A stretch of DNA of 53,513 nucleotides from contig JAKPKY010000248.1 in NCBI GenBank assembly GCA_029553505.1, positions 1-53,513 on the forward strand, written 5' to 3'. The translations under genes were made by a program, and so were the position numbers. The stretch comes from Planctomycetota bacterium. GTDB lineage: Bacteria > Planctomycetota > Phycisphaerae > SM23-33. The notes beneath the pieces are model-generated. The model ran no database searches. It was given only the letters and a program-made list of their open reading frames with translations, and was not told the origin of the DNA. Positions 24,576 through 50,885 of the stretch are shown here, in pieces. Numbering within the stretch: position 1 is the stretch's first letter; every line of letters starts with the position of its first letter.

Positions 24576-24930
24576 GGGGGCGAATTGGATTCGACCGGAC
24601 GGGTGAGGCGCCGGTGGCGTGCCGAGGTTCCAAGGCGGCCTCGTTAAACCCCTTGGGCTATTTTTACGTGCCAACAATGGCTACGCAATGGCTGCCTAAT
24701 TAACTAGGCAACCCGTCTCGGTGGGCCTGGGCCCGTGGGCCTGCCGCGACGACAACCAACGGGCTCGCCGAGGGACAGTGGGGCGGTTACCCCTCGGGAC
24801 TTCCGTCGCCCTGGCCTGGACGAACCGTGTCCCATGCGGGTCGGACGGGCGAGACACAAAACAGGGACTACGCACGTAGAAGCCGTCGCTGAAACGTCAC
24901 GGGACGCGGGTTCGATTCCCGCCGCCTCCA
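24576..24930 (+). ncRNA. ssrA: tmRNA (SsrA)
   Basis: The 355-nt transfer-messenger RNA that rescues stalled ribosomes. The acceptor stem pairs GGGGGCG (24576-24582) with CGCCUCC (24923-24929), followed by discriminator A. The 3' CCA is not encoded. The 5' side has the tmRNA D-loop region (GAUUCGAC), and the 3' side has the T-arm GGUUCGAUUCC. The tag reading frame starts with resume codon GCC at 24670 after UUACGU and ends with UAA at 24697-24699, giving ANNGYAMAA. The C-terminal MAA replaces the common LAA. The 3' end is the likely attachment site of the adjoining prophage. Confidence 0.97.
24908..24930. other. candidate prophage attachment site (attL) in the tmRNA 3' end
   Basis: The T-arm and acceptor end of ssrA, from GGGTTCGATT to the discriminator A, is a common target of tyrosine integrases. 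An integrase gene starts 180 bp downstream and reads away from it. A matching direct repeat would mark attR, but none occurs in the rest of the window, so the prophage probably ends beyond the right edge. Confidence 0.6.
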
Positions 24931-25110: not shown

Positions 25111-26118
25111 ATGAGCCAGGCATGGCCGCGAGCGGCCATGGACGGCGACGCGTCCCAGGGATGGGGGGACCTGATCGACGGCTTCCGCCAAGAGGCCGAA
25201 CTCCGCATGGACTCCAAGCAGGCAAAGGCCGCAGCCGCGATCGCGACGCGGTTCCTCTGGCACGCCGGCCTGCCGGGCTGCGGCGGACTTCGCCCCGGCG
25301 AGCCGGCGGAACGGCTGGACGCCGCCGCCGTCAACCGCTACCTGGCCGGCGTCTCGCGGGGCGGGGCGAGCCTAAAAACGCTGCACAACCACCGCTGGGC
25401 GATCGCGGCCTTTCTGGAGCACCTGGTCAACCTGCGCATCCTGCCGAGCAACCCGGCCGCCGCCGTGCGGCTGCGGAAGCTCGAGAAGCGCCCGGCTCGC
25501 TGGCTGACCGACGAGGAAGTCTCGGCCGCGATGTCCGTCGCCCGCCAGCGCGGAACCTGGCCGGAGGTCGCCCTGGCCGTCGCGTCGGGCCTGCGGCTCA
25601 GCGAGCTGCGGCGGCTAATCTGGATGGACGTCGATTCGCAGCGCAGCACGCTTTTGGTCCGCAAGGCCAAGGGCAAACGTTGGCGAACGGTGCCGCTGAA
25701 CCGGCTGGCCGTCGCGGCGCTGGACGAACAGTGGAAGATCTCCGGCGGACTGGTCCACGTCTTCCCGGCGCGGCGGACCTGGCGCGGCGGCTGGGCGTGG
25801 AAGGACGCGCCCCGCGCTGCCAACTGGTGGCGGAAGGCGATGGCGCCGATCCAGGACGCCGTGCCGAAATTCCGCCAGGCCGCCGGCACCGGCCGCGGCT
25901 GGCACCTGCTGCGCCACACGTTCGCCAGCCGCCTGGCCCAGCAGGGCGTGGACCTCTACCAGATCGCCGAGTGGCTCGGCCACACCGACACGCGGACCAC
26001 GCAGATGTACGCCCACCTCGCCGCGGGCTACAACCCGCTGATCGAGCGGGCCTGCTCGCGAGGGGATTTTTGTAATGACAAAAACGATACAACAACAGAA
26101 GGGAACGCGAGATGCTAA
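25111..26118 (+). CDS. int: tyrosine-type phage integrase
   Basis: A 335-residue site-specific recombinase. The N-terminal SAM-like core-binding domain spans about 15-115 (TLHNHRWAIAAFLEHLVN). The catalytic domain has the full set: R162 in SGLRLSEL, a lysine near 187 on the beta-hairpin, H265-x-x-R268 in HLLRHTFASRL, H291 in WLGHTD and the nucleophile Y300 in TQMYAHL. It lies 180 bp from the tmRNA 3' end and reads away from it, as expected for the enzyme that integrated this prophage at ssrA. GGGAG lies 8 nt before the start. It converges with the second recombinase and overlaps it by four bases. Confidence 0.93.
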   Translation: MSQAWPRAAMDGDASQGWGDLIDGFRQEAELRMDSKQAKAAAAIATRFLWHAGLPGCGGLRPGEPAERLDAAAVNRYLAGVSRGGASLKTLHNHRWAIAAFLEHLVNLRILPSNPAAAVRLRKLEKRPARWLTDEEVSAAMSVARQRGTWPEVALAVASGLRLSELRRLIWMDVDSQRSTLLVRKAKGKRWRTVPLNRLAVAALDEQWKISGGLVHVFPARRTWRGGWAWKDAPRAANWWRKAMAPIQDAVPKFRQAAGTGRGWHLLRHTFASRLAQQGVDLYQIAEWLGHTDTRTTQMYAHLAAGYNPLIERACSRGDFCNDKNDTTTEGNARC

Positions 26119-26879
26119 TCCTCGCCCAGGATCGCCTGGTCGACGTCGTCCTGGTCGGCGGCCAGGTAGGTGGTGGTCGAGGCCAGGCTGGCGTGTCCCA
26201 GCGCCTGCTGGACCCGCGCCACGTTGCCGCGGGCGTTGCGGTGGACGCGGCGGGCGAAGCTTTTCCGCATGGAGTGCGTGCCGGTCTGGCCGTGGATGCC
26301 GCAGCGGACGAACGCCGCGTGCAGGATCTGCCAGGCCTGGCCGCGGGTCAGCGGCTTCCGGTCGGTCTCCGGCGCCCCTTCGTCCTGGACGGGAAGCTCC
26401 CCGAACGGCAGCAGGGCGTCGGCCTTCCCGCGCCGACGCCGCATGCGGGAGCAGAAAACCGGCGTCGCGGCCGCCAGCAGGCCCTTGACCCGAAGGACCT
26501 CCAGCCAGGCGGCCAGCGCGGCGCGGGCCTCGGAATGGACCGGCACGGAGCGGCCCTGCCGCTTGAGCTTCATGTGCCGCCGGGCGACGGTGATCCGCTC
26601 GGCGATGTCTCCGGCGGTCAGCACCCTCTCCCGGGCCTCCCCCTTGAAGGGGGAGGGGTGGGTGGGGGCGCCATCACCCTGCCCTCTCCCGGCGGGAGAG
26701 GGGTTTTTCGGCAAGGCGCGAAGCACGTCGCCGCAGGTCAGGCTCAGCAGCTCCGAGATCCGAAAGCCCGTCCAGCAGCCCAAGACGAACATCGCCCGGT
26801 CCCGGAGGGCCCAGGGGCCGGTGAAGCTCGCGGCGACGCGGGCGATCTCTTCGGAGCTGAGCGGTCGGCAGCCTGGCAT
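26115..26879 (-). CDS. catalytic-domain-only tyrosine recombinase with a repeat-encoded insertion
   Basis: A 254-residue tyrosine recombinase without a core-binding domain, similar in layout to FimB/FimE inversion enzymes or short Xer-like proteins. Catalytic residues are R40 (GFRISEL), K104 (RRHMKLK), H202-x-x-R205 (THSMRKSF), H229 (ALGHAS) and Y238 (TTYLA), so it may be active. Residues 57-86 are encoded by two copies of the GAGAGG palindromic repeat found between genes elsewhere in this prophage. The insert falls between the strand ending CGDVLR and the one starting AERITVARR. Promoter TTGACA/TAGAAG places transcription start at the ATG. Its target DNA is unknown. Confidence 0.88.
   Translation of the reverse strand: MPGCRPLSSEEIARVAASFTGPWALRDRAMFVLGCWTGFRISELLSLTCGDVLRALPKNPSPAGRGQGDGAPTHPSPFKGEARERVLTAGDIAERITVARRHMKLKRQGRSVPVHSEARAALAAWLEVLRVKGLLAAATPVFCSRMRRRRGKADALLPFGELPVQDEGAPETDRKPLTRGQAWQILHAAFVRCGIHGQTGTHSMRKSFARRVHRNARGNVARVQQALGHASLASTTTYLAADQDDVDQAILGED
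26622..26711. repeat. GAGAGG palindromic repeat, two copies inside a recombinase gene
   Basis: Contains CCCCCTTGAAGGGGGAGGGG and CCCTCTCCCGGCGGGAGAGG units. It is inserted in frame and is a 90-bp multiple of three. Same family as 32845-32893, 38984-39028, 40629-40670, 47104-47162 and 47988-48043. Confidence 0.85.
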
Positions 26880-40265: not shown

Positions 40266-40601
40266 TCACTGGTCCATGCGGACGCGGACCGTCTCGTCGG
40301 CGTCGTCGCAGTCGGCGACGGACTTGCCGATCAGCTTGTTGTTGCCGCTGTCGGAGTCGGTCGTGGCGACCTCGGCCGCCTTGTCCCAGTAGTACACCGT
40401 CCCGGCGGTGCTGCCGCTGCCGGTGGAGGTGTCCTTGGGGAAGTCGAAGACGCCGGACACCGCCAGGCTGCCCAGCTCGTTGGCCGCGATGGCCCGCGGG
40501 GCCACGCCCACCAGCTCGCCCTGGACGACCACGTCGCCGGCGGCCACCGCCGAACCCGGCGTGTAGTCGATGGTGTTTCCTTCGTGTACGAACGTTGTCA
40601 T
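40266..40601 (-). CDS. DUF2190-like capsid decoration (cement) protein
   Basis: A 111-residue beta protein directly downstream of the capsid gene. It has the DUF2190-type opening (FVHEGNTIDYTPGSAVAAGD, then VVVQGELVGVAPRAIAA), the GTVYYWDKAAEVAT strand and LIGKSVADCDDADETVRVRM. Relatives decorate the outside of phage heads and stabilise them. Family assignment is good from pattern and position. Confidence 0.82.
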   Translation of the reverse strand: MTTFVHEGNTIDYTPGSAVAAGDVVVQGELVGVAPRAIAANELGSLAVSGVFDFPKDTSTGSGSTAGTVYYWDKAAEVATTDSDSGNNKLIGKSVADCDDADETVRVRMDQ

Positions 40602-40704: not shown

Positions 40705-42852
40705 TTACACAGAACCCTTGCTCTTGACGCCGCCCTTGGGGTCCTGCTTGGCCACGCCGAAGTCGTGATAACCGCGCATCTGGACGCCCAGGACGTTGAA
40801 GTCCGCTTCCGCCGTCTCGATGGTCGGGCTTTCCTGGCCGTTCAGGAACGCCACCTCGATCACCGGCAGGTCCGCCGGGTCGGCCAGCAGGTACCACGCC
40901 AGGGCCGAGTAGCCCTTGTAGGCGCTGTTGGCCAGGTACCGGCTGACGACCGCGCGGAACTTGTTGGCGTGCGGGTTGGCCACGGGGTACTTGGTGCTGG
41001 CCGTGGTGTCGCGGATCTCCAGGCTCTTGAAAAGCATGGTGGCCATCGCGCCCAGGGACGTCGGAACCAGCAGGATCGCCGGCATCACGCCCAGCGGCTT
41101 GCCGTCGCCGTCGACCTGGTCCATGAAGGCCCGCTCGGCGGCCGACAGGCCGTCGATGCCCAGGACCGTGGCCGCGCCGGAGAGATAGTTGTTGTTGCCG
41201 GCGGCGAAGAAGGCGGCGTTGTCCAGGAACGCGGTCCAGAACACGTCGTTGATCTTCAGGCCGCTGCCGCGCCCCAGCTTGCGGGGGACGGTCGTGATGG
41301 CGCCGAGGTCGTCGTTGATGACGTCCCGCCGGTCGATGGAGAGCATCAGGCCGTAGGTGTCGGCCTTGTTGGTGTAAGTCTCCTCTCCCAGCGTCCCGTG
41401 CTTCAGCTCGCCACCGGGGGCGACCAGCTCGTACTGGTCCTTGCCGATCAGCCGGTAGCTGGTGACCGTCTTGAAGTCCGAGACGTTGCGGATCGCGGCG
41501 ATCTCGCGCCAGGCCCGCTCGACGCTGAAGAAGCCGTCCAGCAGGAACTTGTTGGCGACGTTGGACAGGATGCCGCCGATGTCGATGGTGCTAAAGCCAG
41601 CCTGAACGACGTCGTGGCCGAACGCGCTGCGCAGGATCGCGCGGGTGTCGCGGAAGCTCCGGCCGGTGTAGCCGTTGGCCCACGCGGCCTCCAGCAGCAG
41701 CTCCTGCAGGCCCAGGCCGTGCGGGAACCGCTTGGACGCCGCCTCGAGCGTCTTGGCGTCGTAGAGCTGCTCGACCTTCTTCTCGCCGGTCAGCTTTCCG
41801 GTGAGCATGGCCGCGGCCTCGAGCACCGCGCCGTCGGCGGCCTGTTCCGGCACGTGGGCGGCCGGGGCCTTGGGCCGGTCGGCGCGCAGCACCTCGAGCT
41901 CCGCGCGCGTCGCGTCCCAGCCCTCGGCGATCGCCCTGGCCTCGATGTCCGGGTGGCCCGTGCAGGCCTTGCGGACGTCGGCGATCCGCTTGCTTTCGGC
42001 GGCGGCCTCGGCGCGGATCTGCTCCGCGGCGGTCCGCGGGGCGGGATCGGAGGGTTCTTTGCCTTCGTCGTCGTCGGCGTCGGACGCCTTGACCTTGGCC
42101 TTTTTCCCGTCCTTTGCGTTCTTCTTTTTCCAGTCTTCGCCGGCCGCGGCGACTTCGGCGTCGTAGGCCGCCTGGAGGCTGGCCAGCTGCGTCTCGTCGA
42201 GGTTCGCCCGGACGAAGCCCTTTGCAATGAGCCACTGTTCGAATGTCATGTTGGTTTCTCCCGCGGAGGCGGCGACCCGCGCGCGCGAGCGGCGGTCGGC
42301 CCCCAAGTCCACGAAACTGATCTCCCCGAGCGTCGATTTGCGGATGACGTTGACGGGGCCCTTGACCTTGCGGCCGTTGACCACCACGGTCTGGCCGTCT
42401 GTGACGTACTCGTACTCTTCCACGCTGGCGCCGACGGACGCCTGCCACGGGAAGCCGTTCAGCGCCGAGGCCACGATCTCGCGGGCCACCTCCGTGTCGC
42501 GGCTGATCACGCCCGCGGCGGTCAGGCGCGCGCCCTCGATGGAGACGCTCTCGCTGTGGCCGACGCCGGCGGCGGCGTCGTGTCCGGCGCGGATGGGGAC
42601 CGACTGCGACGGGATGGTCAGGCCGGCCAGGTCGATCACGACCGGATGGAACCAGCCGGCCACGCGCATGGGCCCGCCCGTATAGGCGACCATCTGGAAG
42701 CGGGGAAGTTTCTTCGCGTTGCCCTCGCCCGCGGCCGCCTCGATGCGGACCGCGCCGTCGCTGACGAAACTCACGGGGCTCGCCGGGGCCTTGGCGGCGG
42801 CCTGAAGCCTGTGGCCTGAAGCCTGTCGCCTGTGGTTCTTACGCGATCGCAT
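40705..42852 (-). CDS. prohead protease fused to Mu gpT-like major capsid protein
   Basis: A 715-residue fusion. Residues ~45-215 are a prohead protease: catalytic-type H91 in RAGHD and S139 in QASVGA, then SEISFVDLGADRRS-like closing sequence. Residues ~215-390 are a charged helical linker (WKKKNAKDGKKAKVKASDAD), which probably serves as internal scaffold. Residues ~395-715 resemble Mu gpT-like capsid proteins (LSNVANKFLLDGFFSVERAW, ETYTNKADTYGLMLSIDRRD). The enzyme would cut itself off the capsid after assembly. The start at 42852 overlaps the portal stop; the first ~20 residues are repeat-derived (RRQASGHRLQAAAKA). Confidence 0.9.
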   Translation of the reverse strand: MRSRKNHRRQASGHRLQAAAKAPASPVSFVSDGAVRIEAAAGEGNAKKLPRFQMVAYTGGPMRVAGWFHPVVIDLAGLTIPSQSVPIRAGHDAAAGVGHSESVSIEGARLTAAGVISRDTEVAREIVASALNGFPWQASVGASVEEYEYVTDGQTVVVNGRKVKGPVNVIRKSTLGEISFVDLGADRRSRARVAASAGETNMTFEQWLIAKGFVRANLDETQLASLQAAYDAEVAAAGEDWKKKNAKDGKKAKVKASDADDDEGKEPSDPAPRTAAEQIRAEAAAESKRIADVRKACTGHPDIEARAIAEGWDATRAELEVLRADRPKAPAAHVPEQAADGAVLEAAAMLTGKLTGEKKVEQLYDAKTLEAASKRFPHGLGLQELLLEAAWANGYTGRSFRDTRAILRSAFGHDVVQAGFSTIDIGGILSNVANKFLLDGFFSVERAWREIAAIRNVSDFKTVTSYRLIGKDQYELVAPGGELKHGTLGEETYTNKADTYGLMLSIDRRDVINDDLGAITTVPRKLGRGSGLKINDVFWTAFLDNAAFFAAGNNNYLSGAATVLGIDGLSAAERAFMDQVDGDGKPLGVMPAILLVPTSLGAMATMLFKSLEIRDTTASTKYPVANPHANKFRAVVSRYLANSAYKGYSALAWYLLADPADLPVIEVAFLNGQESPTIETAEADFNVLGVQMRGYHDFGVAKQDPKGGVKSKGSV

Positions 42853-44359
42853 CTTCGATCTCCTCGACTCGGCTGCGCAGGTCTTCGATCGCGGCGGCCT
42901 CCGCGTCTCCATCTCCGCCGTCGTCGGGCGCGGATTCGTTCGGCAGCGGCAGTCCCAGTTCCTTCTGGAGCGAGATTTCCTTCGCCCGCTGGCGCAGCTC
43001 GGTTTCCCAGTCCTTGCCCTGGCGGGCATACTCGGTCGCCAGCGTGGTGGCGTGGTTGGCCAGCCGCGTGGCCTGGGCGGAGGCCTCCTTGACGGGGTCC
43101 ACGTGCTCGTGGCCGTCCCAGAACCACTGGTGCGCCTGGACCGGCGAAGCGCCCGTCCGGCTGATCCCGAAGACCGCCACGGCCTCCAGCAGCCAGGCTT
43201 CGAGGATGCGGTCCAGCACGACCGCCTCGCAGTGGGCCTGCTCCACGCGGATCGACTTGTAGTAGGTCTGGTGGTCCAGCCGCCCCGAGGCGTAGTTGTA
43301 GCCGGAGCTGTTGCAGGCGGCGATGTTGTACGGCATGTTCAGGCAGCGGGCGATCTCGTTGAGGATCTCATGCTTGAACATGTCATACGTCGTGGCCGGC
43401 TGCTCGGCCTTGATCTGCTCGGGCTTCCAGCCTTCCGGGGCGAAGACCGCCGTGTTCTGTTCGGTCTCGATCTCCTGGACGGCGCCTTTTTCGACTTCGG
43501 CCGCCTCGCCGCCGGGCGGGACGGTCGTCGCCATCACGATGGCCCAGTTGGCGGCGCTCTCGGCAGCCAGGATCACCGCCTGCGTGTAGCGACGGAGCTG
43601 GGCGAACAGCGGCAGCGCCGGCAGGATGTCCGGCAGGCCGCGCCGCTGGCCGGGGCGGTCGGCGCGGAACCAGTGGATCATGCTCGACGCGGGGACCGGA
43701 ACGATCTCCGTCGAGCCGGTCCCGCCGCCGGGGTGGGCCTTGAGCACCTGGTAGGTCTTCGGGTTGCCGAAGGCGTCGAACTCGATGCCGTCGACCGCCT
43801 CGGCCGATCCGACCTTGGCGGCCGCGCCGGGCGAGGTCACCTGGTCGGCCTCGATCAGCCGCAGGTCCAGCTTGACGGGGTGGGCGAGGTTCTCGTTGGT
43901 GAACAGGACCGCGAACGCCTCGCCGTCCTGCGCCCGGGCCATCCGCAGCGTCCGGAGCTTGGCGGGCAGGTCGACGGCCTTGGCCCAGGCGGCGAACTCC
44001 CGCTCGATCGCCTGGTTGATCTCGGGGTTCTCCAGGAGCATCTGCAATCGCGGGCCCGTGCCGATGCAGTCGTTGGCGAGCGTCAGGACGATTCCGCGGG
44101 CATAGGAGTTGTTGGCCACCTCGTAGCGGGCGCGGTTGCGGAGGATGCGGCGGATGTCGGCGCGGGCGGCGGCGTCGGGCGAGAGGCTGTCGGCGTTGGC
44201 CCAGTGGCGGCGGTTGTCGGGCGTGGTCTGCGCCGAGTCGAACTTGGCTCGGACCTTTTTTACAGCCGAGTCGCTCTTGCTCCGTACAAGGGACCGGTAC
44301 CTTGCCGGCGCCGCCGAGTCGCTCTTGTTCCGCTTGAAGGGCCAGAAGTTCATTTTCAT
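42839..44359 (-). CDS. phage portal protein (lambda gpB-like)
   Basis: A 506-residue portal protein, the dodecameric ring through which DNA enters and leaves the head. Signatures are ARYEVANNSYARGIVLTLAN (90-110), MARAQDGEAFAVLF, DLRLIEADQV, MIHWFRADRPGQRRGLPDI and NMPYNIAACNSSGYNYASGR. The C-terminal ~60 residues are a helical acidic tail. The N-terminus has a duplicated KSDSA motif. A hairpin repeat at 44366-44387 lies in the ribosome-binding region, so the true start could be either of two ATGs (44359 or 44353). Confidence 0.93.
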   Translation of the reverse strand: MKMNFWPFKRNKSDSAAPARYRSLVRSKSDSAVKKVRAKFDSAQTTPDNRRHWANADSLSPDAAARADIRRILRNRARYEVANNSYARGIVLTLANDCIGTGPRLQMLLENPEINQAIEREFAAWAKAVDLPAKLRTLRMARAQDGEAFAVLFTNENLAHPVKLDLRLIEADQVTSPGAAAKVGSAEAVDGIEFDAFGNPKTYQVLKAHPGGGTGSTEIVPVPASSMIHWFRADRPGQRRGLPDILPALPLFAQLRRYTQAVILAAESAANWAIVMATTVPPGGEAAEVEKGAVQEIETEQNTAVFAPEGWKPEQIKAEQPATTYDMFKHEILNEIARCLNMPYNIAACNSSGYNYASGRLDHQTYYKSIRVEQAHCEAVVLDRILEAWLLEAVAVFGISRTGASPVQAHQWFWDGHEHVDPVKEASAQATRLANHATTLATEYARQGKDWETELRQRAKEISLQKELGLPLPNESAPDDGGDGDAEAAAIEDLRSRVEEIEDAIA

Positions 44360-44390: not shown

Positions 44391-44591
44391 TCACACCGTT
44401 CCCGGAGGCACGATCTTCATCCGCGCGAACGCCTTGCGCGGGTCGGCATGCGCCGCCCGCTTGCCGGACAGGTACTTGTCCGCCCGGATGAGCTGGTCCA
44501 GCGAGTGCTGCTGGACGGTCGTGCCGTCCCCGCTGGCGCTGGCCGGCTCGGAGGCCGCCTGCTCGAGGATGTCCTCGATCTCGTCCGTCAT
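44391..44591 (-). CDS. gpW-like head-tail connector
   Basis: A 66-residue protein, upstream of the portal as in lambda. It has an N-terminal acidic helix (MTDEIEDILEQAASEPAS), the central DGTTVQQHSLDQLIRADKYL segment and a basic C-terminus, which fits the small gpW/head-completion type. Start at 44591 was chosen because it opens the helix; upstream in-frame codons are in a non-coding gap. Confidence 0.72.
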   Translation of the reverse strand: MTDEIEDILEQAASEPASASGDGTTVQQHSLDQLIRADKYLSGKRAAHADPRKAFARMKIVPPGTV

Positions 44592-44828
44592 CGCATGACC
44601 TTTTCTCCAGTGCCGCGGCGCGTAAAATTGGCCGCGCGGGTGCACGGCCCCGTGCGGCCATGTTCGAGGCGGTTCTTTCCGTCCGTTTTTGGGGCGGAAA
44701 GCCTCCGGCGGTTCGGCCGGGTTGCCTCTCGTCAGCCATCGCTATCGGGCGACGGCAGGCGCAACACTACCAAAAAATCGCCCAGGTTCTACCCGTAGAC
44801 GTGGATGCGCCGATTTTTCCGAGAATTT
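44592..44828. other. 237-bp non-coding gap in the late operon
   Basis: Two small palindromes are seen: GCACGG-CC-CCGTGC at 44642-44655 and a CTTTCCG/CGGAAAG pair at 44680-44706. T-runs such as TTTTTTGG occur near the glycosyltransferase end. It may hold an internal promoter or terminator for the late operon, but none is clear. No gene is supported. Confidence 0.4.
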
Positions 44829-45806
44829 TCACAGGAGGGTGCGGGCGATTTCGATCGCCCGGGCGTAGCGGTCCCGGAAGTCCGCCAGGCCGTACCGTTC
44901 GGCCACTCGCGCGGAGGCCGTTTCGCCCAGCCGGCGGCGCAGGGGGTCGTCGTCCAGCAGCCGCTCGATCGCGCCGACCGCGCCGGGGACGTCGGAGGCC
45001 AGCAGGGCATTGACGCCGTCTTCGACCTGGTCCAGCAGGCCGCCCCGCGCGTCGATCACCGCCGGCAGTCCGACCGCCAGCATCTCCTGGACGGCGATGC
45101 CGAACCCCTCGGCGCAGCCCGCCAGGTAAATCCCGAGGTCCAGCGATTCCAGAAACTCCCACTTGCCCGGCCCGACGCGCGGTTCCAGCAGCGTGCAGGG
45201 GAAGCCGCAATTTTGAAACCGCTCCGCCAGCGGCGCCATGCCGTAGCCGAGAAAATGCACCAGCCGTCGCTCGTGAATCCGTTTCAAGACGGCCAGCAGG
45301 CGCGGGGAGAATTTCTCCATGCGCCCGGAGGCGATGCAGCCGATCCGCACCGGCGAACCGATCCAGTAGTCCGTCTTGCGGACGGGCGGCAACCGCATGC
45401 CGGGATGCAGGCTGGGCAGTTCGGAGAGGCCCTGCCTGATCCGCAGCCACTCCGTGCCGGCGGCGTTGACGGAACAGTTCAGGGCGTGCGGATGGAACTG
45501 GCCCCTGGAAGCCGGGAAGCCGTGGTAGACGCTCAGCACGGGCCGGCGGAGTTTGTCCCTGCCCGGCGCGGACGCCGGCTGGTTGTGGTGGACGACGACA
45601 TCGACGTCGTCCGCCACGCGCCAGTCGCTCCAGCGGAACGGCGTCGGCAGGATGCCGTACGGCGCCAGCAGGCCGAGGGCCTCCGGCTCGATGGTCCCGC
45701 GAACCGCGATGCGGTGCGTCCAGCCGGGCGTGGCGGCGATCAGCCGGACGAGGTCGTGTTCCAGGCCGCCGACCCACCAGAGGTTCAGGTAATGCTGGAT
45801 GATCAT
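44829..45806 (-). CDS. phage-encoded glycosyltransferase family 4
   Basis: A 325-residue GT-B glycosyltransferase. It begins MIIQHYLNLWWVGGLEHDLV, has VDVVVHHNQPA, the domain-two opening RIGCIASGRMEKF, the LGIYLAGCAEGFGIAVQEML donor-binding segment (E before GFGI) and a C-terminal helix. It is the last of three glycosyltransferases embedded between terminase and portal genes. Substrate is unknown; candidates are virion proteins, host surface glycans or modified DNA. Confidence 0.85.
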   Translation of the reverse strand: MIIQHYLNLWWVGGLEHDLVRLIAATPGWTHRIAVRGTIEPEALGLLAPYGILPTPFRWSDWRVADDVDVVVHHNQPASAPGRDKLRRPVLSVYHGFPASRGQFHPHALNCSVNAAGTEWLRIRQGLSELPSLHPGMRLPPVRKTDYWIGSPVRIGCIASGRMEKFSPRLLAVLKRIHERRLVHFLGYGMAPLAERFQNCGFPCTLLEPRVGPGKWEFLESLDLGIYLAGCAEGFGIAVQEMLAVGLPAVIDARGGLLDQVEDGVNALLASDVPGAVGAIERLLDDDPLRRRLGETASARVAERYGLADFRDRYARAIEIARTLL

Positions 45807-45837
45807 GGTTCGGTCTCCGGTTTCCGGTCCTCGGTTT

Positions 45838-47079
45838 TCATTTCTTCCGCCCGGTCAGGGTGTACGCCGAAACCTCCCCGACATGCCGGCACCAGGACGG
45901 CTCGCAGTGCGCCACCCAGCGGCCCGCGTCGCGCAGGCGGCGGGCCATGCGATGCTCGAACTCCGGCGGCTTCGCCGGAAGGCAGGCGCGGACCGCGTCC
46001 GTCCAGTGCAGGTTGGGGTTGAGCGTGAAGCCGGGCCAGTGGCTGTCGCTTCCGTCCGCGTTGCGCCGGCCGGTGTACAGGTGGAACCGGTACGGCACGG
46101 CGCTGCCGGTGCGGCGCGGCTGGCAGGCCTGGAACGGCAGCCCGACCTGCGCGAGCCGCGGATCGTGCAGCAGGATGGAGAAACACTCGTGGATCAGGTT
46201 TCCCTGTCGGTGGAATTCCCAGTCGTCCTCCAGCCAGAGCGTCAGCGGGGTGGCGATCCGCTCGTAGGCCAGGTTGACCGATTCGTGGTGGCCGTGGCGC
46301 TTGTTGTAGAGGATTTCGCAGTGCGGCCAGCGGCGGGACATTTCCCGCCGATCAGGGAGGCTGCTGCCGTCGTCGACGATCAGCCAGCGGCTGACCTGGT
46401 CCAGGTCCACGCAGTTCCGCCGCAGGGAATCCATCATCCTGCCCATCAGGCCGAGGCGGCGGCAGGCGGTGACGACGGCCGTGATCTCCGGGAGCTTGCG
46501 GACGTGCTTGCGACCCGGCGGGCTGGACAGGCCGAAGAGGATCTTCGGCGCGCCGACGGGATTCCCGCGGCCCGGCAGCCAGCACCAGTTCGGCGGCAGT
46601 TCCTTGAGCCGAAGAAAGTCCCTGTCGGCCTGCCAGAGGCGGCAGAGCACGTCGTGGTCCGGGGAGCAGTTGTCGGCCGACTCGACCGCCGCGGCCCAGC
46701 CCTCCAGGAACCGCACCGCCGCCGGCGTGCAGTTGAACCACAGCACGGTCGCCAGCACGGGAAGGTCTTTCCGGGGCAGCTGCTGGCGCACGGCCGCCAC
46801 GTCGGTGTTTCCCATCAGGACGTCCAGTTCGTCCAGCGGGCCGACGACGCTGCTGTCCGCGTCCACCCACAGGACGGGCCGCCGAAGATCCCGCAGGGCC
46901 TGGAGGATGATGCGCGGCTTCAGCAGGCAGGTGTCCTGCCAGCAGCCCGCATGCTCGGCCTGGAAGACCCAGCAGGGAATCCCGTGGACGGCGCAGTCCT
47001 TCGCCAACCGTGCCGCGCGCTCGGCGTACCAATCCTGCCCGGGCGGGTCGGCGTGAAACGTGACGACGTTCGTGATCAT
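45838..47079 (-). CDS. two-domain glycosyltransferase (GT77-like plus GT2-like)
   Basis: A 413-residue protein with two apparent GT-A domains. The N-terminal domain has LLKPRIILQALRD then LWVDADSSVVGP (DxD at 73-75), as in nucleotide-diphospho-sugar transferases (GT77/DUF616-like). The C-terminal domain has ITAVVTACRR, WLIVDDGSS (235-240) and LWLEDDWEF (283-288), as in GT2. The linked domains may add two sugars in succession. It lies 31 bp from the GT4 gene. A possible Shine-Dalgarno (TCAGGA) is 11 nt from the start. Confidence 0.83.
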   Translation of the reverse strand: MITNVVTFHADPPGQDWYAERAARLAKDCAVHGIPCWVFQAEHAGCWQDTCLLKPRIILQALRDLRRPVLWVDADSSVVGPLDELDVLMGNTDVAAVRQQLPRKDLPVLATVLWFNCTPAAVRFLEGWAAAVESADNCSPDHDVLCRLWQADRDFLRLKELPPNWCWLPGRGNPVGAPKILFGLSSPPGRKHVRKLPEITAVVTACRRLGLMGRMMDSLRRNCVDLDQVSRWLIVDDGSSLPDRREMSRRWPHCEILYNKRHGHHESVNLAYERIATPLTLWLEDDWEFHRQGNLIHECFSILLHDPRLAQVGLPFQACQPRRTGSAVPYRFHLYTGRRNADGSDSHWPGFTLNPNLHWTDAVRACLPAKPPEFEHRMARRLRDAGRWVAHCEPSWCRHVGEVSAYTLTGRKK

Positions 47080-47103
47080 GGTCGTTCATATCCTGACAGA
47101 TTT

Positions 47104-47162
47104 TTATCAACACCCTCTCCCCGCCCTCTCCCTCAAGGGAGAGGGGTTGGGGTGAGGGTCCG
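47104..47162. repeat. GAGAGG palindromic repeat overlapping a glycosyltransferase C-terminus
   Basis: CCCTCTCCCTCAAGGGAGAG, then GGGTTGGGGTGAGGGT. It encodes the last ~17 residues (DPHPNPSPLRERAGRGC) of the upstream GT2 gene. Confidence 0.85.
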
Positions 47163-47958
47163 CCCCTTCAAAAAATCTCCGCCGGTTCGCCCGCTCGGCG
47201 TCCGGAGTCCGCCAGTCCGGGCGGTAGTCGTGCCGGACGTGGTACAGGCAGGAGGCCGGGTCGGTGCGGATCGCGCCGCGATAGGCGTCGCCCGCGGCCC
47301 GGCGGATGCGCCGCAGCATGTCCAGGTCCTCCCAGCCGCGGCCTACAAACGCCTCGTCCCACCGGAGATTTCCCAGGGCGCGCAGCATGTCCCGCCGGAG
47401 GGAGAACTGGCTGTTGCCCAGGACCGTGGCGATCGACGCCGGATCGGCGGGGGCGACCTTGGGGTTGTATTCCGCGCGGCCGTAGGCCTCGTAGGCCCGT
47501 GGATGACGCTCGTATTCCGCCGGGTCGAACAGCGCCCGCCAGGAGTCGCGGTCCGGCAGGTCGGTTCCGGGCGGCAGGTACCGGACGCGGTAGGCCAGCA
47601 GCGTGACGGCCGGGTCGTCCAGCGCCTCGACGGCGCGAATCCAGCGGGGCCCGACGATCGCGTCGGCGTCCAGGAACGTCAGCACGTCGCCGCCGCAATC
47701 GATTCCGACGTTCAGCAGGGCGGCCTTGTTGAAGACCGGCATCTCGCGCTCGTCGTGGACCACGCGGACGCGGCCGCTGCCCACCAGGTAGTCGTAGGGA
47801 TAAGGTTCCCGCCCGGACCCGTTGTCGATCACGAGGATCTCCCAGGCGCGCGGGTCCGTCCAGGGCGGCCCGCACTCCAGGGCGCTCCAGAGGATCGAGC
47901 AGACGCAGCGGGCCAGCGCCGCGTGTCGGTCCCGGTGCGGGATGACGATCGTATTCAT
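47107..47958 (-). CDS. phage-encoded glycosyltransferase family 2
   Basis: A 283-residue GT-A enzyme: TIVIPHRDRHAALARCV at the start, VIDNGSG (44-50), LTFLDADAIVGPRW with the metal-binding DxD at 97-99, and GWEDLDMLRRIRRAAG, a galactosyltransferase-type (GT7C-like) ED motif. It is the first translated of three adjacent glycosyltransferase genes. The final ~17 residues are encoded by a GAGAGG repeat and look like an extension of a protein that once ended near FFEGA. The start at 47958 was chosen because a typical GT2 first strand follows. Confidence 0.86.
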   Translation of the reverse strand: MNTIVIPHRDRHAALARCVCSILWSALECGPPWTDPRAWEILVIDNGSGREPYPYDYLVGSGRVRVVHDEREMPVFNKAALLNVGIDCGGDVLTFLDADAIVGPRWIRAVEALDDPAVTLLAYRVRYLPPGTDLPDRDSWRALFDPAEYERHPRAYEAYGRAEYNPKVAPADPASIATVLGNSQFSLRRDMLRALGNLRWDEAFVGRGWEDLDMLRRIRRAAGDAYRGAIRTDPASCLYHVRHDYRPDWRTPDAERANRRRFFEGADPHPNPSPLRERAGRGC

Positions 47959-47987: not shown

Positions 47988-48043
47988 TCACCCTCTCCCC
48001 GCCCTCTCCCTTCCAGGGAGAGGGGCAAGGGGTTTTCTAATGT
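47988..48043. repeat. GAGAGG palindromic repeat overlapping a small gene's C-terminus
   Basis: CCCTCTCCCTTCCAGGGAGA and AGGGGCAAGGGG, followed at 48040 by GTTCCCGGTTCCC. It encodes the end (about KPLAPLPGRERAGRG) of the 114-residue protein. Confidence 0.85.
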
Positions 48044-48332
48044 TCCCGGTTCCCTGTTTCTTGCCCAGCAGCGCCGCGAAGGTCCGCACGCGCCGCCGGG
48101 CCGCCCGCGGCAAGGCATACATCGGCACGCCGGCGAGCCCGAACGCATCCATGCCGGTCCGGCGCTCCAGCCCCGCGGCCAGTTCGACGGCCGCCAGCGC
48201 CCTTCGGACCGCCGCCAGGCCGCGAGGCGAGCGGTCCTCCAGCAGCTCGTCCGCCAGCTCGTGCAGGCTCGGCCCTCCGCCGCCGAACGGAAGGCTGAAC
48301 AGCACCTCCCGGCCCAGCTCATCGAGGTCCAT
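47988..48332 (-). CDS. small phage protein, unknown
   Basis: A 114-residue protein starting MDLDELGREVLFSLPFGGGG. It is helical (LHELADELLEDRSPRGLAAV, ALAAVELAAGL) and then basic (RAARRRVRTFAALLG). The last ~15 residues are repeat-derived. It overlaps the end of the zinc-ribbon gene by 14 bases and precedes the glycosyltransferases. No domain recognised. An in-frame ATG at 48389 would lengthen it but lies inside the zinc-ribbon gene. Confidence 0.6.
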   Translation of the reverse strand: MDLDELGREVLFSLPFGGGGPSLHELADELLEDRSPRGLAAVRRALAAVELAAGLERRTGMDAFGLAGVPMYALPRAARRRVRTFAALLGKKQGTGNIRKPLAPLPGRERAGRG

Positions 48333-48552
48333 CAACGCATCCGTCGTCAGGTTGTCCGTCTTTGGGTTCACGCTCAATCTCCTGCTCATAGGTGCTGACC
48401 CGCGCGCCGCAGTAACGGCACTGCCGGCGCCGGAGGATTCTTCCGCCCGGCAGGGCGCGGGTGTAGAGGACGTGGAAGTGGCGGCAGCCGCAGCGCGGGC
48501 ATTCCAGGCCGCGTTGCGATTCCGCCGGGTCCCATTTTTTCCGAGCCGCCAT
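48319..48552 (-). CDS. NrdR-like zinc-ribbon small protein
   Basis: A 77-residue protein with a four-cysteine ribbon: CPRCGC at 18-23 and CRYCG at 47-51, joined by a basic RALPGGRILRRRQ and followed by ARVSTYEQEIER. This is the pattern of the NrdR zinc finger (CPFC ... RRRRECLECHERFTTFE). NrdR's ATP-cone is absent. The start overlaps the terminase stop by one base (TAATG), so it is made with the terminase. It may bind DNA or RNA in packaging or late regulation; that is inference. Confidence 0.75.
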   Translation of the reverse strand: MAARKKWDPAESQRGLECPRCGCRHFHVLYTRALPGGRILRRRQCRYCGARVSTYEQEIEREPKDGQPDDGCVDGPR

Positions 48553-50885
48553 TACGACCTCCTCCGCAGGTCGGCCTGGGTGTAGCGCTTCCGCTGGCGG
48601 ACGGCGCGGGTCTCCTGGCCCGGCGCGGCGGCCCCGAGCATGCTCGCCGCCACCGCGCAGCCCACCAGGCAGTCGAACCAGTGGTTGTCCGGCGCGCCGG
48701 GCCTCAGCAGCCATTCGTGGACCTTCCGGCCCCGCCCGGCCGTCTCGACCCAGGTCTCGCTGCCGGCGACGTGCTCGGCGAACAGCTCGTGCTCGTTGGC
48801 GTTCTTTCCCCAGAGCGTCAGGCCGCCGCGCTCGGACGGCGGCGCGGCCAGCGCGCCGTGCACGTGGCTCTTCCAGTAGTTCACGTCCGCCGCGACGTGG
48901 CGGAACTCGCGCGTTCCGGAGAGGTTCGGGATGTACCAGTGGCAGCCGAAACTTTCGCCCGGCTTGCGGCGGTACTCGCTCATCGGCCGGTGCGCGGCGC
49001 GGATGCCCACGCCCTTGGCCAGCCACATCGTCTCGCCGCCGACGGCGTGCTTGACGGCCTCGACGATCTCCGGCTTGTAGCCCATGTCCACCAGCAGCCG
49101 CCCGATCCGCATCACGCCGCCGCCGGCGCGGGGGAACTCCCTCCGCAGCAGCTCGGCCACCAGGCCCTCCAGCCCGGCGCGGATCACCGCGTCCGTCCCG
49201 CGCCCGGGGGTGGCCCGGCCGAGCGTCTGCTGCGCCGAGCGGAGCGTAAACCGCCGCAGCGACTGCCGGGGGTGCGTGCCGTAGTCGATCACGCAGCCCG
49301 TCAGGTCCGACTCCCAGGCGACCACGCACCAGAACAGCAGCTCGTCGTGGACGTCCACGAAGCCGGTCAGGTGGGCCGCCGCCTGCGGGACCTGGCCTTT
49401 CGGGCGTCCGTTGAGCTTCGCGGCCACCTGGGCGGGGCGCAGGGCGGCGTCGGCGAGTTGCTCGGACCGCGGCGCGTTCTGGTATTCGGACCAGAACGTC
49501 GCCTGGTTGGCGAAGAACAGGTCCATCGCGTGCTGGATGGCGCTCAGCTCCGTCCGGCGGTCGTAGGCGTGCACCCACGAGACCGACGCGCCGGCGTCCA
49601 TGTCGGCGCGTCGTTTTTTGTAGTAGCGGTTTGAATCGCGGATTCCCGCCGAGCCGCGCCCGCGGCGGAGGTCCCAGTATTCCTCCCAGAGCTTCAGGTT
49701 GTCGGGGAATTTCGTGAGGAACGCCGTGCAGAGGCTCTGCCAGTCCGGGCTGGCGTCGCGGTTCATCAGGCGGTCCGCCAGGTCGGACTCGTAGATCTTC
49801 GTCACCAGCGCGACTGCGGCGACGGTCTCTCCGGGCCCGGCCAGGTAGCGGACGTCGCCGTTGATCAGCTCCAGCCGGTAATCGGTCTGGAGGCTCGAGC
49901 GGGCGCTCCGCCGCGTCTGCGGGTCGTCCAGCAGGACCATCCGGGGCCGGATGACCGTGCCGTCCGGGCGCTCGTGCTGGTGGCCGCGGATCTCCCCGTC
50001 CAGGCCGTCGACGCTGTAGACCGCGCCCCAGGCCGCCGGCTTGACGCCGCGCTGGGCGAACGACGCCGGCAGGTCCTCCGGCCGGACGGACGGGAAGACG
50101 ATCCGGTCGTCCTCCCACCGCACGTGCGTCAGGTGGCCGTTGACGTGCTGCTGGAGCTGGCGCTTGGAGGAATTCTCCAGCCGGCGCAGCGGCAGGATCG
50201 CCTCCGGGAAATCCTCGCCCAGCTTGCGGTTCTCGATGATGACCGTCTTGACCGGGCTGAGCAGCTGCCGGACGGCCCGGGTCTCGGATGCCGAGATCCC
50301 GCAGACGTAGTCGACCAGGTTGGCCAGCACGGCCCACAGGGCCGCCCAGCGGGCGAGCGTGGTCTTGCCGCCGCCGCGGGGCATGGCCAGCGCGAACATG
50401 CCGCCGTTGCGGCCGACGTCCTGGAGGATCTCGATCGCCTTGAGGTGGTCGTCCGACCAGGGCCAGCAGAACGCGGCCGACGCGTAGGTCTCGCAGAACG
50501 TCCGGAGGCTCGCGACGGCCGCCAGGCGGCGCGGCCAGTCCGCCACGTCGGGGATCGGGCCGACGTCCTGGGCGGCCTTGGTGGCGGCGCGGTTCCGCTC
50601 GGCCTGTTTCTTTTTCGCCTCGAGGTAGCGGTCCGCCGCCGACGGCGCCGGCGGCGCGGACTCCGCGGCGACGAGCCGGTCGAACAGCCACGCGACGTAG
50701 CGCGGCAGGTCCACGCGCCGCCCGTCGCCCGCCGCGGCGATCCGAAGCCCCGCCGCGTCGCGGTGGGCGCGGAGGGCCGCCGAGGACAGCACCGCGCCCA
50801 GCGGCGTGCTGTTCAACAGCCGGACCGTCTCGGCGGGCGTGAGCCGCCTGAGGTCCGTGGTCGGTGTGTGCTCACTTTTCCGCAA
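48552..50885 (-). CDS. phage terminase large subunit with N-terminal DNA-binding-like module
   Basis: A 777-residue packaging ATPase/nuclease. Walker A is MPRGGGKTTLARW (168-180) and Walker B is MVLLDDPQTRRS (316-327). The C-terminal half carries the nuclease-type region (HDELLFWCVVAWESD, VDMGYKPEIVEAVKHAVGG). Residues ~12-72 repeat the module found in the two small genes upstream (LTPAETVRLLN ... RRVDLPRYVAWLFDRL). The start is probably TTG at 50885, because the previous in-frame codons are TGA, the stop of the upstream gene, and two sense codons. Readthrough of that TGA would fuse the two proteins. Confidence 0.9.
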   Translation of the reverse strand: MRKSEHTPTTDLRRLTPAETVRLLNSTPLGAVLSSAALRAHRDAAGLRIAAAGDGRRVDLPRYVAWLFDRLVAAESAPPAPSAADRYLEAKKKQAERNRAATKAAQDVGPIPDVADWPRRLAAVASLRTFCETYASAAFCWPWSDDHLKAIEILQDVGRNGGMFALAMPRGGGKTTLARWAALWAVLANLVDYVCGISASETRAVRQLLSPVKTVIIENRKLGEDFPEAILPLRRLENSSKRQLQQHVNGHLTHVRWEDDRIVFPSVRPEDLPASFAQRGVKPAAWGAVYSVDGLDGEIRGHQHERPDGTVIRPRMVLLDDPQTRRSARSSLQTDYRLELINGDVRYLAGPGETVAAVALVTKIYESDLADRLMNRDASPDWQSLCTAFLTKFPDNLKLWEEYWDLRRGRGSAGIRDSNRYYKKRRADMDAGASVSWVHAYDRRTELSAIQHAMDLFFANQATFWSEYQNAPRSEQLADAALRPAQVAAKLNGRPKGQVPQAAAHLTGFVDVHDELLFWCVVAWESDLTGCVIDYGTHPRQSLRRFTLRSAQQTLGRATPGRGTDAVIRAGLEGLVAELLRREFPRAGGGVMRIGRLLVDMGYKPEIVEAVKHAVGGETMWLAKGVGIRAAHRPMSEYRRKPGESFGCHWYIPNLSGTREFRHVAADVNYWKSHVHGALAAPPSERGGLTLWGKNANEHELFAEHVAGSETWVETAGRGRKVHEWLLRPGAPDNHWFDCLVGCAVAASMLGAAAPGQETRAVRQRKRYTQADLRRRS

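Follow-up and report, generated by a model that had tools for sequence, protein, structure and literature searches.

Three intact genes for soluble glycosyltransferases (GTs), one of them from a phage-confined family, form a tight co-directional run between the packaging and head genes of a planctomycete prophage, in a slot that this family (GT2) has occupied repeatedly. In our estimate there is about an even chance that this trio is a phage-owned glycan-assembly cassette, held in a cargo slot, that decorates a virion protein. The DNA analyzed here (the window, 53,513 nucleotides) represents an entire contig from a Planctomycetota MAG of 2.5 Mb. All three GT open reading frames were verified; they lie on the minus strand, their GC3 is of the coding type, and the gaps within the trio measure 27–31 nt (Table 1). 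Read along this strand, the late genes follow the order terminase gpA, NrdR-like Zn ribbon, 133-aa protein, GT2, a two-domain glycosyltransferase (GTx), GT4, gpW-like protein, portal, protease-capsid fusion, cement, head-tail joining and tail tube. With these data we could confirm the coordinates, strand and neighbors behind the earlier note's claim that a GT4, a two-domain GT and a GT2 gene lie in a row, in late direction, between terminase-associated and gpW/portal genes. The GT genes thus sit among virion structural genes and share their direction, as the GTs of Corndog-type cassettes do. No sigma-70 promoters were found, and terminator-like sites are not significantly enriched (5 observed vs 2.7 expected); one of them, at 44795-44783, directly follows GT4.

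Table 1. Features of the prophage and of the cargo slot; positions refer to the window unless a related locus (L number) is named
Feature	Position	Strand	Evidence and remarks
GT2: GT-A glycosyltransferase, polypeptide-GalNAc-T-like fold, phage-confined family	47107..47958	-	PF00535 E 3.5e-9, 11-row alignment, model; GTG start at 47991 also open
GTx: two-domain glycosyltransferase, N-terminal GT-A domain (DAD) and C-terminal GT2-like domain (VDDGS, EDDW)	45838..47079	-	Alignment, model of N-domain; without Pfam match
GT4-type glycosyltransferase (GT-B), EX7E intact	44829..45806	-	PF00534 E 8e-11
133-aa protein, left flank of slot	47988..48389	-	In some relatives too
NrdR-like Zn-ribbon protein, conserved left border of slot	48319..48585	-	PF22811, 1.5e-10
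Terminase large subunit, gpA type	48552..50885	-	PF20454
gpW-like head protein, 84 aa, right border of slot	44391..44645	-	Conserved before portal in relatives; window copy without Pfam match
Portal protein, lambda type	42839..44359	-	PF05136
Head maturation protease-major capsid fusion	40705..43029	-	PF25209, phrog_4523; ORF from first ATG, true start later
Capsid cement protein	40266..40601	-	PF09956
tmRNA gene at prophage start	24576-24930		
Tyrosine integrase, adjoins tmRNA	25111-26118		
Partial, non-significant structured-RNA match (remnant)	44619..44671	-	19.7 bits, E 0.13
Remnant of motif ACGTCTACGGGTAGAACCTGGG, which precedes the structured RNA in relatives	44775..44805	-	Read by eye
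Structured RNA element in relatives	L034:6400-6515, L078:4426-4541, L118:9645-9768, L172:7532-7635(-), L184:15145-15263		About 35 more
tRNA-Met (CAT) in relatives	L034:6520-6595, L111:9633-9704, L015:6090-6162		About 17 more

Since the integrase adjoins the tmRNA gene, which likely marks the attachment site, the trio is distant from the integrase end of the prophage. Directly after this integrase, on the opposite strand, lies a second tyrosine-integrase-like gene (window 26115-26879). A second copy of the attachment site was not found in the MAG. The contig terminates within a gene for a DNA methylase that belongs to the prophage, and a search from the contig ends found no overlapping contig that extends it further. 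Lysogenic-conversion cassettes of the gtrABC type combine membrane GTs with a flippase and lie near the attachment site. The window trio shares with them that its GTs are phage-encoded, but it is soluble, lacks a flippase and is embedded in structural genes.

GT2 and GT4 were assigned to their families by domain match and catalytic motifs; the DAD motif of GT2 (11-row alignment) and the EX7E motif of GT4 are intact and invariant among relatives. GTx aligns over its full length with proteins of two other phages, in which DAD (73-75) and EDDW (284-287) are invariant. A simple hydropathy scan detected no membrane segment in the three GTs (none above KD 1.5 over 19 residues), and this, together with the intact motifs, favors a virion protein as the target. 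The predicted model of GT2 (pLDDT 83) finds its best PDB matches in the protein O-GalNAc transferases GalNAc-T2/T3 (TMq 0.58-0.61, E about 5e-12). The N-terminal half of GTx is modeled with confidence and folds as a GT-A domain; its best single-domain PDB match is the PBCV-1 GT of major-capsid glycans (2p72/2p6w, TMt 0.60-0.67), and two-domain structures matched by this half are LH3, mimivirus R699 and GlyE, which are protein-glycosylating enzymes. These nearest folds also point to a virion protein. On the other side, the C-domain model of GTx is poor, so that its comparison covers the N-terminal part, and the GT-A fold says little about the acceptor: among the matches to GT2, those to TarP, SpsA and chondroitin synthase follow close behind. 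Because the fold leaves the acceptor unfixed, we treat these matches as support for glycosylation of a virion protein, not as proof.

As to whether related phages keep the trio, a check proposed in the earlier note, two do and most do not, although the GT2 family itself is encountered again at this position in phages that are only distantly related. The first, L171, retains the whole trio in the same order and slot (GT2 60%, GTx 58% and GT4 65% identity), with a portal at 61% and a capsid at 43% identity; the trio is therefore conserved about as well as the portal and better than the capsid. The second, L172, retains all three genes at 46-50% identity, while its portal is only 25% identical to that of the window. 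This preservation of a complete and ordered trio, at portal level in L171, argues for a virion function. Although terminase and portal enclose the trio in L172 as well, it is inverted there and encoded on the strand opposite to that of the late genes. Co-transcription with late genes is therefore not obligatory, which speaks against action on the virion.

The GT2 family occurs in 14 independent viral contigs. Counting the window, it directly follows the terminase gene in 10 of 15 cases (window, L171, L172, L173, L174, L177, L178, L179, L183 and L184; the L183 contig ends before a portal is seen), and in L175 it lies among neck and tail genes. In contrast to the viral contigs, 391 other Planctomycetota genomes contain no match to GT2 (E below 1e-30), nor was GTx detected in them (E below 1e-20). 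At this sensitivity the GT2 family is therefore phage-confined and not a host gene acquired once. Both its distribution and its position favor modification of the virion. Single-sequence searches of viral contigs found no relatives of GTx, for which an alignment query was needed, and a phage database contained no matches to GT2 or GT4. In a terminase (TerL) tree, GT2 carriers are scattered among non-carriers, with 7 changes as the minimum and at least four forced by well-supported branches; this scatter is only suggested, since the two groups come from separate searches and branches are long.

In several carriers GT2 heads a longer run that includes other GTs, class I methyltransferases, sulfotransferase-like proteins and radical-SAM proteins. 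A related radical-SAM protein recurs in such cassettes (L173:7497-8417, L174:6903-7760, L177:5914-6762 and L184:10134-11033), also in the company of sulfotransferase-like and methyltransferase genes, an unusual set for glycan or protein modification. One 72.8-kb viral contig has about 20 small genes for GTs, methyltransferases and epimerases arrayed in succession (L180:784-16580).

To describe the slot itself, we compared relatives of the portal gene in viral contigs, where 80 of 261 loci were retained, and in genomes of Planctomycetota, Verrucomicrobiota, Kiritimatiellota and Lentisphaerota. The conserved order is terminase, Zn ribbon, slot, gpW, portal and capsid. After removal of near-copies, 108 loci contained both slot borders; the interval is shorter than 400 bp in 60 of these, 400-800 bp in 11 and 0.8-7 kb in 37, so that variable inserts between conserved genes stand beside many empty sites, as expected of a prophage cargo hotspot. 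The inserts encode PEP-CTERM proteins, FGE-sulfatase-like, caspase-like and HTH-M78 (ImmA-like) proteins, an aquaporin and an AAA ATPase, and, by sequence reading, cytosine methylases, HigBA-like (toxin-antitoxin-like) pairs, an HNH protein and sigma-like proteins. Cargo is found on either strand, with several genes opposite to the late genes, and the difference in orientation between GT genes and other cargo is not significant (p 0.23, hand counts). Because the inserts are so varied and some are reversed, we regard the slot as a general cargo hotspot. A complete planctomycete chromosome of 7.4 Mb (CP087563, 'syqfu') contains about a dozen copies of the portal gene (L135-L144, L148, L151 and L157), so that either this chromosome hosts many related prophages or its assembly is odd.

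Between the cargo slot and gpW, upstream of the latter, many relatives contain a structured element of approximately 115 nt in the shape of a three-way junction with a terminator-like hairpin. Its covariation is strong, with 96.3% of cells paired as compared to 28-45% when the alignment is slid, and 86 double-change cells as compared to 25 after shuffling. With no match in Rfam, this element is an undescribed RNA. The corresponding model also finds copies beside the slot in L172, L177 and L184. A tRNA-Met (CAT) gene often follows the element directly, just before gpW and within the late gene run. In a broader scenario, a widespread planctomycete phage lineage would possess a cargo port between packaging and head genes, often flanked by this RNA and tRNA-Met, and would repeatedly exchange phage-specific virion-glycan cassettes of GTs with methyltransferases, sulfotransferase-like and radical-SAM enzymes, the RNA acting in regulation or exchange at the port. 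We consider this scenario rather unlikely.

The closest known arrangement is that of cluster O mycobacteriophages (Corndog gp35-38, Firecracker gp33-36). In Corndog-type phages, the interval from portal to protease contains genes for an O-methyltransferase and for three GTs (PMC4351075), and the Corndog relative Firecracker likewise has an O-methyltransferase and GTs at this location. Glycosylation of capsid and tail tube of Corndog-type virions by phage enzymes has been reported, according to papers that cite this work (Freeman 2023, cited in PMC12363180, PMC11600133 and PMC11256854). As in the window, the cluster O cassette consists of a gene run with soluble GTs in the head-gene operon beside the portal, and one of its GTs is annotated as a polypeptide GalNAc-T; for Corndog itself, the citing articles report glycosylated virions (PMC12363180, PMC11600133). 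The window trio differs in its location between terminase and gpW/portal instead of portal and protease, in the lack of a methyltransferase, and in phage lineage and host. In Caudovirales GX15bay (MK557849), GTs and a methyltransferase are encoded in a row that precedes the terminase by a few genes, and these GTs differ from the trio. One of them is the only tblastn match to GTx in the phage database (26% over the C-terminal half). Methyltransferases among the cassette mates of GT2 in other carriers, as in Corndog-type phages, and the similar array of GX15bay favor glycosylation of the virion. Against it counts that the GT2 profile, compared by hhalign with three Firecracker cassette proteins (gp34, gp35 and gp36), gave only a weak match to gp35 (probability 50%) and none to gp34 or gp36.

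If the trio acts on the virion, GT2 would attach a first sugar to Ser/Thr of cement, capsid or tail-tube protein, and GTx (two transfers) and GT4 would extend this glycan at the expense of host nucleotide sugars during the lytic phase. Released virions would then carry a short glycan coat that may change adsorption, recognition or stability. The cement protein is a weak candidate for the acceptor judging by its composition (Ser/Thr 18% vs a mean of 13% in relatives, rank 7 of 89); choosing the acceptor by Ser/Thr content is not convincing, as this protein alone was mildly high. No Ser/Thr-rich insertion that would mark an acceptor was found, which weighs against the virion as target.

The main rival is modification of the host surface, in which the trio, expressed in the lysogen from its own promoter, would transfer sugars onto a surface glycan of the planctomycete or onto a lipid-linked precursor, thereby altering phage receptors by lysogenic conversion or superinfection exclusion. 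What makes it serious is the slot: relatives keep host-directed cargo there (secreted PEP-CTERM proteins, aquaporin, defense- or TA-like genes), which speaks against a virion role, and the slot accepts reversed genes, among them, in L172, the trio; moreover, GT4 enzymes commonly extend surface glycans. We nevertheless regard this explanation as somewhat unlikely, because the trio has no membrane segment and is accompanied by no membrane GT, flippase or polymerase, a difference from gtr-type cassettes that extends to its location; because the GT2 family is absent from 391 genomes of the host phylum; because 12 of 16 GT-carrying records, many of which are fragments, yielded no integrase; and because the tie to packaging and structural genes is maintained even between phages that are distantly related. 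The earlier note had argued from the late operon to late expression and hence to virion or DNA as the target. Position, direction and operon-like packing stand, but the argument is weaker than was claimed given a general hotspot with reversed and host-directed genes and an inverted trio in L172. Its preference for virion protein or DNA over host surface survives in the first part, a virion protein being the best-supported target.

Glycosylation of hydroxymethylated bases in replicated phage DNA, as a shield against restriction, would fit the methylase adjacent in the prophage and phage GTs of such kind (Pyle 2024, as cited in PMC12619734). This is very improbable: a ThyA-type base hydroxymethylase was neither found in 15 GT-carrying contigs (many of them fragments) nor recognized in the window, the trio matches no DNA-GT family in Pfam or PHROGs, and the nearest folds are GTs for protein or polysaccharide. 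The trio might also be one of many hotspot inserts, directed against competitor phages or without a role in the phage's own cycle. Slot contents do vary strongly among relatives, and P2-like phages have a short variable cargo locus from the gpA replication gene to gpQ that is rich in anti-phage systems (PMC9122126). This locus resembles the slot in lying between conserved phage genes beside the portal; it differs in its position by cos and its anti-phage content, while the slot separates terminase from gpW, is bordered by structured RNA in many relatives and sometimes holds GT cassettes. Neutral or defense cargo is improbable given that L171 and L172 conserve the trio at portal level with its catalytic motifs intact, and it fails to explain why a single GT2 family, instead of a random assortment of genes, appears again and again at this point in distantly related phages.

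In the portions of the literature surveyed, glycosylation of phage virions is experimentally established in a few mycobacteriophages only. The trio described here probably serves to coat virions with sugars. The cell surface of planctomycetes is unusual, and few of their phages are known. If many planctomycete-type phages carry a phage-confined GT family fixed next to the terminase, this would point to virion glycosylation as widespread and exchanged in cassettes, and the GT2 family together with its slot would provide a marker for finding such cassettes.
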